Part shown: positions 1,183 to 3,817 of the stretch, in pieces
How positions within the stretch are numbered: position 1 is the first letter of the stretch
Layout: every line of letters begins with the position of its first letter
From: a methanogenic archaeon ISO4-H5
GTDB taxonomy: Archaea > Thermoplasmatota > Thermoplasmata > Methanomassiliicoccales > Methanomethylophilaceae
Assembly (NCBI GenBank): GCA_001560915.1
Contig: CP014214.1
Coordinates: 186,001 to 250,000, forward strand
DNA: 64,000 nucleotides
Direction of reading: 5' to 3'
Program-made: the position numbers and the translations under genes
The notes under the pieces: model-generated
The model's database searches: none
Told to the model about the DNA's origin: nothing
Seen by the model: the letters and a program-made list of their open reading frames with translations, nothing else

Positions 1183-1380
1183 TCAGAATATAATGCCCAA
1201 TGCGAGTATAACAGCGACCCCAATCAGTGCCGCCGCACTCCAGAACAGGTCCTTGTACTTCTCCTTGCGGATCACGGCCTGGTCCTTGTGATAGCATTCC
1301 ACCGAGCAGTAGGCCTGGTCGGAGGGGACGCAGTCGCCGCAGTAGCGGCAGTGGTCGTGGTCTGACACTTCAGGACACAT
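1183..1380 (-). CDS. DUF2116-type zinc-ribbon protein with C-terminal membrane helix
   Basis: A small protein of 65 residues when started at ATG 1380-1378. It carries a treble-clef/zinc-ribbon signature, HxHCRYCG followed by YCSVEC, then a basic linker and one C-terminal membrane helix (WSAAALIGVAVILALGIIF). This arrangement matches the DUF2116 family of archaeal membrane-tethered zinc ribbons, whose function is unknown. In-frame starts further upstream exist (ATG 1392 and 1413), but the only good TATA box (1402-1409) sits 22-31 bases before 1380, so a leaderless mRNA from 1380 fits best. It is transcribed divergently from the ubiquitin-like cassette and appears to share that TATA box, so a functional link is possible but unproven. 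Confidence 0.65.
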   Translation of the reverse strand: MCPEVSDHDHCRYCGDCVPSDQAYCSVECYHKDQAVIRKEKYKDLFWSAAALIGVAVILALGIIF

Positions 1381-1401
1381 GTAAAAATCCATGGCGGTTC
1401 C

Positions 1402-1410
1402 CTTATAAAT
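1402..1410. promoter_or_regulatory. Shared palindromic TATA box between divergent genes
   Basis: CTTATAAAT on the plus strand reads TTTATAAG on the minus strand. Toward the plus strand it lies about 31-39 bases from the E1 ATG at 1441. Toward the minus strand it lies 22-31 bases from the zinc-ribbon ATG at 1380. No second TATA-like sequence was seen in the 60-base gap, so one TATA box may drive both directions. Confidence 0.5.
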
Positions 1411-1440
1411 CATCTCTCCGAGTTTTCAACAGGTATCCGA

Positions 1441-2199
1441 ATGCCGAAAGACGAAAGGTTCGACCGCATGGAACGCACTGAGTGGATCGACATGTCCCGC
1501 ATCCACGGGACCCAGGTCTTCGTAGCTGGTGCGGGTGCCCTCGGCAACGAGGTCGTGAAGAACCTCGTCCTGGCGGGTTTCCGCGACATCACCGTGGCCG
1601 ACCCCGATACTGTGGAGAGGAGCAACCTCAGCCGCTGTGTCCTTTTCAGGGAGGAATCGGTAGGGAGGAACAAGGCGGAGGTCATCGCCGAGACCGCCGC
1701 CGAACTGTATCCCGGATGCAGGATAACACCCATTCCTGACGTCATGCAGAGAACTGATCTGTCCCGCTTCGGAGTCCTCATCGGATGCCTCGATAGCATA
1801 AGTGCCAGACTGCATCTGAACGCCCATGCGAGGTTCTTCGGAATACCCTATGTGGACGGTGCCACCGATGGTTTCCGCGGCAAGATGCAGACAGTCTTCC
1901 CGAAAGGGCCGTGTCTCGAGTGCGGGATGAACACCACGCATCTCGATGCGCTGCACAGGACCTTTTCGTGCATTCCGGGGGAGACTGTCAAGGACCCGGT
2001 TATCCTGTCCTCGGGAATCACGACTACTGCCGTTATTGCGGCCATGTGCGTGAGGGAGGTCTTGAAGATAGTGTGCGGAAGGGCCGATCTGTGTGTCCCG
2101 GGAGTGAGCTATTACGATGGAATCTCCGGGAGGACGGAGGTGCTGGAGACGGGATTCCGGAAGGGATGCCCGCATCATGAAGGAGAGATGAGTGAATGA
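1441..2199 (+). CDS. Ubiquitin-activating E1-like protein (ThiF/UBA3 type)
   Basis: The 252-residue protein is a ThiF/MoeB/E1 adenylation domain and should activate the ubiquitin-like protein encoded next. Visible features are the nucleotide loop GAGALG (30-35), D54/D56 with RSNLSR (60-65), GRNKAE with K78 (75-80) and a GCLDSISAR segment (115-123). The last resembles the GLDSIxAR of eukaryotic UBA3 and UBA2 more than the TDN motif of MoeB/ThiF. CLEC (158-161) with C243/H245/H246 could bind zinc. C177 in FSCIPGETV lies where the catalytic cysteine of UBA3 sits. There is no separate ubiquitin-fold domain, so it is a minimal E1. Its TGA overlaps the next ATG (2196-2199). A MoeB-like sulfur-transfer role is the alternative, but the E2 two genes on argues for a conjugation cascade. 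Confidence 0.88.
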   Translation: MPKDERFDRMERTEWIDMSRIHGTQVFVAGAGALGNEVVKNLVLAGFRDITVADPDTVERSNLSRCVLFREESVGRNKAEVIAETAAELYPGCRITPIPDVMQRTDLSRFGVLIGCLDSISARLHLNAHARFFGIPYVDGATDGFRGKMQTVFPKGPCLECGMNTTHLDALHRTFSCIPGETVKDPVILSSGITTTAVIAAMCVREVLKIVCGRADLCVPGVSYYDGISGRTEVLETGFRKGCPHHEGEMSE

Positions 2200-2429
2200 G
2201 AATCAGAATAGTGAATACGCTGGACGGTGGGGAGATAACCGCCGAGATGGAACCCGGGGATTCGGCCGGGGATGTGATCGTCTTCGCAGCTCAATACTGG
2301 AAGAAAGACCGCAGTGCGTTCATCATGAGGGTCGGCAACAGGCTGATCCCGGAGAGTGCCACGCTCAGTGAGGCAGGAGTCGCCGACGGAGACTCGGTCG
2401 AACTCGTACCCGATCCTCAGGGTGGATGA
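2196..2429 (+). CDS. Ubiquitin-like protein ending in Gly-Gly
   Basis: A 77-residue protein, against 76 for ubiquitin. It has the beta-grasp layout in ubiquitin order: MRIRIVNTLDGGEITAEM for the first hairpin, EPGDSAGDV before the helix, a GNRL turn with LSEAGVADGDSVELV for the last strands, and a tail that stops exactly after Gly-Gly (PQGG). Because nothing follows the Gly-Gly, it is made in mature form and needs no processing protease. It lies between the E1 (ATGA overlap) and the E2 (one base between TGA and ATG). Conjugation to protein through the terminal glycine is inferred from this context. A sulfur-carrier role like MoaD or ThiS is less likely because no pathway partner is nearby. 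Confidence 0.88.
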   Translation: MRIRIVNTLDGGEITAEMEPGDSAGDVIVFAAQYWKKDRSAFIMRVGNRLIPESATLSEAGVADGDSVELVPDPQGG

Positions 2430-2430
2430 A

Positions 2431-2874
2431 ATGGGCCTTCCGAGAGCACTGCTGCTGAAGCGTCTGAGGAACGAATTGACGATGCTGTCGGAGGAGCTGT
2501 GGATACCCGTACCCGAAATACCCAGTGAGGCGGAATTCCCGTTGGAGATCCGTCTCAGCGTGAAGGGGACCAAGGGTTATTCCGCACCCGGTGTCAAGGC
2601 TGAGGAGCAGGCGTTCACCCTCATCCTCGGGGACGATTTCCCTTACGAGCGTCCCAAGGTAAGGTGGGAATCAGCGATCTTTCATCCCAATATCATGTCC
2701 CCCGACGAAGGCGGATTGGTATGCGTGATGGCATTGGACCATTGGACGTTCGATTCCAATCTGCTGTCGTTCGTGTGTGCGCTCACCGATTTGATTAATA
2801 ATCCCAACCCTCATGATCCCCTGAGGACACCGACCTGCGCCAAGGCAGCGGAATGGTTCCTCGGGAACATGTGA
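2431..2874 (+). CDS. E2 ubiquitin-conjugating enzyme homologue (UBC fold)
   Basis: The 147-residue protein matches the UBC core of eukaryotic E2 enzymes closely. FPYERPKV (70-77) stands for the YPFKPPKV strand, HPN is intact at 85-87 (Asn87 would stabilise the oxyanion), the active-site Cys is C98 in GGLVC, W105 follows at the expected spacing, and DLINNPNPHDPL matches the conserved LL.DPNPDDPL segment. Bacterial CBASS and related E2s often lose HPN, so this is a full-motif E2. Translation starts at ATG 2431; GGTGG at 2421-2425 in the end of the previous gene serves as ribosome binding site. It should take the ubiquitin-like protein from the E1. No RING or HECT E3 is encoded next to it. Confidence 0.9.
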   Translation: MGLPRALLLKRLRNELTMLSEELWIPVPEIPSEAEFPLEIRLSVKGTKGYSAPGVKAEEQAFTLILGDDFPYERPKVRWESAIFHPNIMSPDEGGLVCVMALDHWTFDSNLLSFVCALTDLINNPNPHDPLRTPTCAKAAEWFLGNM

Positions 2875-2878
2875 AAGG

Positions 2879-3280
2879 ATGACCCAGACAGACAGCAGGC
2901 GTACGGTTCCGGGTGCGGAGCTCTTCTTCGGTGAGAGTGTCGCACAGTACCTGGCGGATCTCTCCGACGACGTATTCTCAGAGGAGGGCTATGCAGAGGG
3001 CCTGCTGCTGGGGCGCAGGTACCGCGATGACCTGGGGCAGTATGTCATAATCAGTGGTGTCACGCAGGACATGACTAATGTCAAAGATGCTGTGGGATGG
3101 TTCAAATCCTCTGAGTCCTGCGAAATAAATCAGCAGGATGTCGGCCGCATGGTCTCGCTTTTCGGGTACATCCGCATCTATGCCATAGCCGTGGATTATG
3201 CACAGGGTTCCATGGCGATGTATGCTGTGGAGAACGGGGCTGCCCGTAAAATCCCCTCGGCCATGGTCGAGAATCTGTGA
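2879..3280 (+). CDS. MPN/JAB-like protein lacking the JAMM metal ligands
   Basis: This 133-residue protein closes the ubiquitin-like cassette. GLLLG (41-45) followed by a strand, then GWFKSSE (73-79), a helix with D87 and further strands follows the order of JAB1/MPN deubiquitinases, where the corresponding segments are ExxGLLLG and GWxHSHP with a downstream Asp. The two metal-binding histidines are replaced by K76 and S78, and the catalytic Glu position is not conserved, so peptidase activity is unlikely. By analogy with MPN-minus subunits such as Rpn8 it may be a binding or scaffold protein. The family call rests on motif order and position after E1-UBL-E2 and is only moderately certain. 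It ends immediately against the convergent hxlB gene. Confidence 0.55.
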   Translation: MTQTDSRRTVPGAELFFGESVAQYLADLSDDVFSEEGYAEGLLLGRRYRDDLGQYVIISGVTQDMTNVKDAVGWFKSSESCEINQQDVGRMVSLFGYIRIYAIAVDYAQGSMAMYAVENGAARKIPSAMVENL

Positions 3281-3817
3281 TCAGACCCAGATAGCGTGGT
3301 TGTTACGCATATCCTTCTCGGAAAGGTCCAGACGTTTCATGAGTCCGGGCACAAGGGTATCGAAGAAAAGTAAGGTGGCATCCTCGAAGACAGTACCGAG
3401 AGGGGCCATCTCCCCCATCTCCTTGTTCTCATCAGGTTTCACGAGGATGACGCTGTCGGAGTTTTTGGCGAGATTGCTGTTCGCATCCGATGTGACGGAG
3501 ATCACATGGGAGCCTATGCGCCTGGCGATCTTGGCGGTGGTGACCACCGACATGGTGTTGCCGGTGTTGGAGATCAGGATGAGAAGATCGTCCTTCTTGA
3601 TGATAGGCGTGGTCATCTCTCCGACGAAGGAGACCTGAAGACCCAGCTGTACCAAACGGATGGCGAAGGTCTGTCCTACCAGTCCGGAACGTCCGACCCC
3701 GAAGATGAAAATGCTCTTAGCCGACAGTATGCGGGCCGTCAGGTCGGTGCGTTCTTTCTCGGAGATTCCTCCGAGGGCTTTCTTGCAGGCCTCGGTCAGG
3801 TAGGTGATGCCGTCCAA
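3281..3817 (-). CDS. hxlB: 6-phospho-3-hexuloisomerase (PHI)
   Basis: This 178-residue single SIS-domain protein interconverts hexulose 6-phosphate and fructose 6-phosphate. In archaea it works with hexulose-phosphate synthase for pentose synthesis or formaldehyde handling. The phosphosugar-binding motifs GVGRSGLVG (about 40-48) and ISNTGNT (about 82-88) are clear, and the C-terminus has the RNNHA element typical of PHI. The start is TTG at 3817-3815, with GTGAT just upstream inside the intergenic ATGA-like junction; no ATG lies near the N-terminus. It is the second gene of a two-gene operon, four bases after the TIM-barrel gene. No hexulose-phosphate synthase partner is visible in this window. 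Confidence 0.88.
   Translation of the reverse strand: MDGITYLTEACKKALGGISEKERTDLTARILSAKSIFIFGVGRSGLVGQTFAIRLVQLGLQVSFVGEMTTPIIKKDDLLILISNTGNTMSVVTTAKIARRIGSHVISVTSDANSNLAKNSDSVILVKPDENKEMGEMAPLGTVFEDATLLFFDTLVPGLMKRLDLSEKDMRNNHAIWV

Follow-up and report, generated by a model that had tools for sequence, protein, structure and literature searches.

A four-gene UBL conjugation cassette

ISO4-H5 is a rumen methanogen of the order Methanomassiliicoccales whose genome paper makes no mention of ubiquitin (PMC5011839). Its genome forms one contig of 1,937,883 bases, estimated to be 99.9% complete, and the window analyzed here is the stretch of 64,000 bases at positions 186001–250000. Four tightly packed genes on the forward strand occupy window positions 1441–3280 in the order E1-UBL-E2-MPN. 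They encode an E1-like activating enzyme (252 aa, 1441..2199) for a ubiquitin-like modifier (UBL), the UBL itself (77 aa, 2196..2429), an E2 UBL-conjugating enzyme (147 aa, 2431..2874) and an MPN-fold protein (133 aa, 2879..3280) that is described below as a pseudo-JAMM, or MPN-minus, protein. The E1 and UBL genes overlap in the sequence ATGA, and the later gaps measure one base and then four bases. A GTG upstream of the E2 start, at 2356, falls within the UBL gene. An original prediction, made from the DNA sequence alone, had placed four overlapping or abutting genes here and had read them as a ubiquitin-like conjugation cassette in a methanogen; all four open reading frames are present, and the analysis supports a cassette of E1, UBL, E2 and MPN.

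The E1 consists of a ThiF adenylation domain (Pfam, 6.8e-45), with neither a separate large Cys domain nor a UFD domain. Its best PDB matches are yeast Uba1 (1.3e-29), UBA3 (2e-26) and UBA2 (1e-25), far above ThiF and MoeB (only 6e-14), which bears out its description as a UBA3-like E1. The best NCBIfam matches, all sub-threshold, are to ThiF and UbaA (NF047750, 80 bits against a cut-off of 450). In an alignment across the phylum, the candidate thioester cysteine C177 is kept in 103 of 105 homologues; a tetrad of zinc type, C158/C161/C243/H246, is conserved alongside it and looks like a zinc site of the enzyme. Three genomes (G034, G039 and G043) of the window's genus, designated g1, retain an E1 remnant and have no detectable UBL or E2; the segment containing C177 is missing from these remnants and their ATP site is partly eroded, lending independent support to C177 as the transfer cysteine.

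The UBL ends in ...PDPQGG with no pro-peptide, confirming the 77-residue modifier with a terminal Gly-Gly that had been read from positions 2196–2429. R49 is the last Lys or Arg of the UBL, and trypsin would therefore leave no Gly-Gly stub on a modified lysine. Its Pfam matches fall below cut-off (ubiquitin, 0.021). Structure prediction had been named as a check on this protein, and the AF2 model (pLDDT 92.9) adopts the ubiquitin fold, with Foldseek matches to ubiquitin (2e-7) and Caldiarchaeum Ub (6e-7) at TM values of about 0.81–0.90. The 50 best PDB matches of the model are ubiquitin and its close relatives; MoaD and ThiS are not among them. Residues P72, D73, P74, G76 and G77 are invariant, ending PDPxGG, in all 116 homologues, which were chosen by that motif. 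The UBL of other families of the class forms the C-terminal domain of a 356–377 aa protein (L147 5811–6881 and L149 5917–7050), following zinc ribbons and a DUF835 domain in L147, which suggests that the tag exists there as a fusion.

The E2 matches Pfam UQ_con above cut-off (1.5e-12) and Ubc13 in the PDB (2.9e-9), and its family profile matches eukaryotic E2s at 5e-15. HPN (residues 85–87), C98 and W105 are invariant in the phylum-wide alignment, and C98 is kept in 124 of 125 homologues in another, so that the full-motif E2 of the original prediction stands. Its further claim that these proteins are closer to eukaryotic ones than to MoeB/MoaD agrees with the E1 scores against the PDB, the Foldseek matches of the UBL and the E2 profile. 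A second cysteine of the E2, C136 (window 2836–2838; TPTCAKAAEW, consensus TDSCTxAAEYF), lies far from the catalytic cysteine in sequence and is conserved like it, in 124 of 125 homologues; we know of no role for this residue.

No RING gene lies between the cassette genes, and no RING pattern was found in the related loci scanned. A genome-wide search with PF13639 (zf-RING_2), the one RING family used, gave a best E of 0.17, below cut-off. Since no E3 was found, the E2 probably acts alone.

The fourth gene encodes a pseudo-JAMM

The fourth protein has no credible Pfam match from sequence. Its AF2 model (pLDDT 90) has the MPN fold, with best Foldseek matches to BRCC36/KIAA0157, Rpn8/Mov34 and CsRpn11 and a probability of 1.00 to Rpn8, Rpn11 and BRCC36. 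The metal motif of an active JAMM, a glutamate and H-x-H-x(7-10)-S-x2-D, has lost four of its five residues: E, H, H and S are replaced by Y38, K76, S78 and N84, and D87 alone is kept. In addition, roughly 30 residues ahead of the active-site motif are deleted, a deletion common to the aligned genus g1 members. The MPN-like protein of the original prediction is thus right as to fold, and the loss of the catalytic residues makes it a pseudo-enzyme. A profile built from intact JAMMs only detects the window protein at E 9.7e-12, and intact JAMMs from relatives score against Rpn11 (1e-24), CsRpn11 (5e-20) and CSN5 (9e-19) much better than against BRCC36 and AMSH. From these comparisons the protein is predicted to be a catalytically dead descendant of an Rpn11/CSN5-like JAMM peptidase.

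The dead protein is nonetheless kept under purifying selection in the window's genus, with a ratio of nonsynonymous to synonymous substitution rates (dN/dS) of 0.088 between the window and RUG13270 and of 0.14–0.24 in wider pairs. Across E1, UBL, E2 and MPN of the window genome and its close relatives, selection is likewise purifying (dN/dS about 0.09–0.4).

A separate JAMM-like protein of 130 aa is encoded elsewhere in the ISO4-H5 genome (L216 1181–1573; G000:C1, about 136.7–137.1 kb). It carries AHSHPG and ASEDD motifs and matches Prok-JAB at 4e-5, just under the Pfam cut-off; it might be a candidate alternative deconjugase, or might serve other UBLs.

Distribution, synteny and inheritance

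A search for the E2 (PF00179) was positive for 96 of the 147 order genomes, covering 28 of the 30 genera, and negative for all 14 control genomes; in a phylum sample of 390 genomes that included other classes, it was positive for 83. The order loci compared comprise 95 fetched loci and the window, most of the relatives being metagenome-assembled genomes (MAGs). In nearly all order loci uncut by a contig end, a convergent SIS gene comes after the E1-UBL-E2-JAMM string. Elsewhere in the phylum the same UBL (..PDPEGG) and JAMM accompany most of the E2 loci, and the E1 accompanies many of them. A scan of named genomes returned 336 E2 relatives; all four genes were found on the fetched contig stretch for 64 of the best 80, whose records belong to Thermoplasmata/Methanomassiliicoccales or are euryarchaeal or archaeal without further classification.

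In the window and many relatives the locus adjoins a xylose-isomerase-like gene and rpL18e-L13-S9-rpoN. Cassette protein distances track those of the flanking genes (Mantel r 0.79–0.85), with 0 of 999 permutations as high, and none of the 50,697 phage and 72,556 plasmid records searched contained an E2 match. Given the position by ribosomal genes, the Mantel correlation and the empty phage and plasmid searches, the cassette is an old core chromosomal system of mainly vertical inheritance and not a defence island. In a combined E1+E2+JAMM tree, the sequences of the order did not group together as a single clade with respect to other Thermoplasmatota.

The right boundary of the cassette is the convergent gene for a SIS-domain protein (3281..3817, reverse strand; Pfam SIS, 1.4e-16), which adjoins nearly all cassettes and also degenerate or empty sites. 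To the left, and divergent from the E1 gene, lies a gene for a small DUF2116 treble-clef membrane protein (1183..1413, reverse strand; Pfam, 3.9e-8). It is a conserved left neighbor in part of the family and persists at a site where E1 and E2 are gone; on these grounds it was dropped as an E3 candidate, and it is probably outside the conjugation system.

Different E2/E1/JAMM clusters occur at loci of other Thermoplasmatota (L157, L158, L162, L164, L165 and L176; L169 and L174). One type has an E2 with 'HPNIAL...DNVCFDIIDPRRVG' and a JAMM with 'HTHPGHxLFLSxxD', and the other a UBL ending in 'LDIIGG'; these look like separate E1-E2-JAMM cassette lineages within the phylum. In each of two genomes, a pair of diverged UBL-E2 copies is split between separate loci (L160/L161 in G151, L163/L166 in G162), one copy with an intact JAMM and the other with no JAMM detected.

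JAMM loss, the UBL tail and stepwise decay

Among the order cassettes the JAMM motif is intact in 86 and lost in eight. The eight comprise all seven cassette-bearing genomes of genus g1 and G066, a Candidatus Methanoplasma MAG. The UBLs of the order either end at GG or carry a tail of 1–10 residues. The UBL ends at GG in all seven readable dead-JAMM genomes, and among 85 active-JAMM genomes it is tailed in 56 and ends at GG in 29. On the flanking-gene tree G066 sits within a clade otherwise composed of genomes with intact JAMMs and tailed UBLs; JAMM death and tail loss therefore coincided at least twice, in G066 independently of genus g1. The Caldiarchaeum Rpn11 was tested and trims pro-ubiquitin (PMC5654768). 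On that precedent, the simplest reading is that the peptidase can die only after the UBL is made mature; the UBL of genus g1, being made ending at GG, would need no trimming.

With the SIS gene as an anchor, twelve genomes without an E2 were searched and ten sites were read. G034, G039 and G043 of genus g1 keep a pseudo-MPN beside the ThiF remnant described above, and G035 of the same genus has, besides its pseudo-MPN, a UBL remnant that is doubtful (E 0.12). In genus g9, four genomes lack E1 and E2 and have a UBL that does not end in GG (E 1e-6 to 8e-14); an MPN remnant is weakly recognizable there (E 1e-4 to 0.05) and is assigned tentatively. Only a UBL without GG is left in G010, and nothing in G016. 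Selection can still be seen in some remnants, as in the g9 MPN remnant with a dN/dS of 0.11 between G072 and G077, and is weaker or uncertain in others.

From this series it may be that pseudo-MPNs arose repeatedly in archaea from an Rpn11-like peptidase as non-catalytic partners of UBLs. The pair of UBL and pseudo-MPN would then outlive E1 and E2 in g9, and perhaps in G035, and with a UBL without GG a covalent tag would have turned into a non-covalent UBL-MPN module. We put this forward tentatively and consider it somewhat doubtful.

Proposed mechanism and alternatives

The genes present, their folds and conserved motifs, the synteny across the order, the lost JAMM residues and the purifying selection are what was observed. 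On this basis we judge it likely that the cassette works in UBL conjugation without an E3 and that its dedicated peptidase has turned into a pseudo-enzyme. Catalysis, targets, partner role and conjugate fate are inferred as follows. On the pattern of known E1/E2 biochemistry, the E1 would adenylate the C-terminal Gly77 of the UBL, take the UBL as a thioester on C177, and hand it on to C98 of the E2. With its HPN intact and no RING E3 found, the E2 would attach the UBL by an isopeptide bond directly to lysines of cellular proteins. In most relatives the adjacent Rpn11/CSN5-like JAMM would trim the tail of the UBL precursor, where present, and remove conjugates. In genus g1, where the UBL is made ending at GG, trimming would have become unneeded and the JAMM active site been lost, the pseudo-JAMM being retained for a structural or UBL-binding role like that of Rpn8, CSN6 and KIAA0157. 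Most likely it is a non-cleaving binder of the UBL or the enzymes, much as Rpn8 and KIAA0157 bind their partners. Conjugates may be removed by another enzyme, such as the product of the separate small JAMM-like gene, or may end at the 20S proteasome; two proteasome subunits are encoded in the ISO4-H5 genome, and conjugates could feed the proteasome.

Several points weigh against this interpretation. Because several genomes of genus g1 have lost both UBL and E2, the system is dispensable and could be on its way out in the genus. The link between tail loss and JAMM death consists of two independent events, and tail loss also occurs without JAMM death, as the 29 tail-less genomes with an active JAMM attest. 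Genome-wide, the absence of an E3 refers to the single RING family PF13639, and most of the relatives compared are MAGs.

A first alternative takes the cassette for a decaying relic, in which conjugation was no longer useful after the loss of the peptidase and is now being lost in the genus. In its favor, UBL and/or E2 are gone from at least G034, G035, G039 and G043 of g1, where a pseudo-E1 and/or pseudo-MPN is all that remains, and genus g9 keeps a UBL without GG and an MPN remnant. In the window genome and its close relatives, however, all four genes are under purifying selection, and every catalytic motif except that of the JAMM is intact. We consider a relic unlikely.

The original prediction had also suggested a defence module without an effector gene. 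Such a system, of the Bil or type II CBASS kind, would conjugate the UBL to phage or effector proteins; the bacterial E1/E2/JAB operons share the gene types and compactness of the cassette, the four-gene make-up resembles Bil, and the E1 has generic matches to the PADLOC E1-E2 and BilD profiles (BilD, 3e-5). The E2, UBL and MPN, however, match no PADLOC profile at E<=1, including that of Bil, no effector gene is present, and the single conserved core locus by rpL18e-L13-S9-rpoN is mainly inherited vertically, with no match among the phage and plasmid records searched. A defence module was rejected on this evidence and is very improbable.

The UBL and E1 might instead form a sulfur carrier or cofactor system of the MoaD/ThiS/Urm1 kind with E2 and MPN as accessories, given that ThiF-family E1s serve such systems and that the sub-threshold NCBIfam matches are to ThiF and UbaA. 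Against this, the genome has three other ThiF genes, including a ThiS-ThiF fusion beside a thiazole-synthase-like gene; an E2 with HPN and Cys is syntenic order-wide; and both the UBL model and the E1 scores point to ubiquitin and to Uba1/UBA3/UBA2, rather than to MoaD/ThiS and ThiF/MoeB. This alternative is highly improbable. A ThiF gene at 447 kb had been flagged for a TGA codon, which proved to be its normal stop.

That the JAMM residue loss is a sequencing or assembly artefact, an idea favored by the predominance of metagenome assemblies among the relatives, can be discounted almost entirely, as the window comes from a nearly complete single-contig genome, the loss recurs in eight genomes of two lineages with the reading frame open, selection on the gene can be measured within the genus, and the aligned g1 members have the deletion ahead of the motif in common.

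Relation to known systems

Caldiarchaeum operons with a RING E3 and Rpn11 have been characterized and Asgard ones reported (PMC5654768, PMC6043591). The ISO4-H5 locus resembles these operons in its eukaryote-like genes: an E1 with, at the sequence level, an adenylation domain and catalytic Cys; a ubiquitin-fold modifier with a C-terminal Gly-Gly that matches CsUb; an E2 bearing HPN and a catalytic Cys; and an Rpn11-like JAMM close by. The JAMMs of the order match CsRpn11 (5e-20), and many of its UBLs have, like CsUb, a short tail after GG. In contrast to those operons, the ISO4-H5 locus has no small RING finger E3, its E1 is small, and its JAMM is the last gene of the same string; the window UBL has no pro-peptide and the window JAMM is inactive, whereas a catalytic Rpn11/JAMM peptidase is present in 86 relatives.

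Fuchs et al. (2018) describe JAMM genes in Ub-E1-E2 operons without a RING E3 ('JAMM-3'; PMC6043591), and Fort et al. (2015) name an Rpn11 ortholog in Methanomassiliicoccus luminyensis (PMC4453063). The JAMM of the order very likely belongs to this gene family, with its greater nearness to Rpn11/CSN5 and its place in Ub-E1-E2 operons that have no E3. The texts of these papers do not mention Methanomassiliicoccales in connection with the whole operon, and pseudo-JAMMs in it, tail loss and stepwise decay are absent from them. The supplementary figures of PMC5654768 (Cluster III) and PMC6043591 may already depict the order. Grau-Bove et al. found euryarchaeal parts in one marine group II genome only (PMC4327156). 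In the literature searched, which did not extend to subscription papers or supplementary figures, neither the complete Methanomassiliicoccales cassette nor its order-wide distribution nor the pseudo-JAMM variants are described. The original claim that no such cassette had been described from the order holds in this sense for the full cassette, and is tempered by the M. luminyensis Rpn11 of 2015 and the Ub-E1-E2-JAMM operons of 2018.

Haloarchaeal SAMP/UbaA/JAMM1 is likewise an archaeal UBL conjugation system with an E1 and a JAMM, but SAMP conjugation proceeds by the E1 with no E2; in the window an E2 gene adjoins those of the E1 and UBL, and both of the latter are nearer to Uba1 and ubiquitin. 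The eukaryotic proteins Rpn8, CSN6, eIF3f and KIAA0157/Abraxas share with the window protein an MPN fold without JAMM residues kept under selection, and the top Foldseek matches include KIAA0157-BRCC36 complexes and Rpn8/Mov34. Unlike these, the window's pseudo-MPN arose independently from the only JAMM of its operon, which encodes no active JAMM partner.

The order-wide distribution and the pseudo-JAMM variant are new relative to the searchable literature, in which archaeal Ub-E1-E2-JAMM operons were already known. Discussion of eukaryote-like E1-Ub-E2 systems in archaea has centered on Asgard archaea and Caldiarchaeum, both of them difficult to cultivate. Methanogens, some of them cultured, carry such a system order-wide, and it reaches through the Thermoplasmatota, making tests of archaeal UBL tagging in a native host possible. 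The series of genomes with an intact system, a dead peptidase, E1 and MPN, or UBL and MPN is a natural experiment in how a conjugation system loses its parts, and it bears on how pseudo-MPNs such as Rpn8 could come from an active deubiquitinase.

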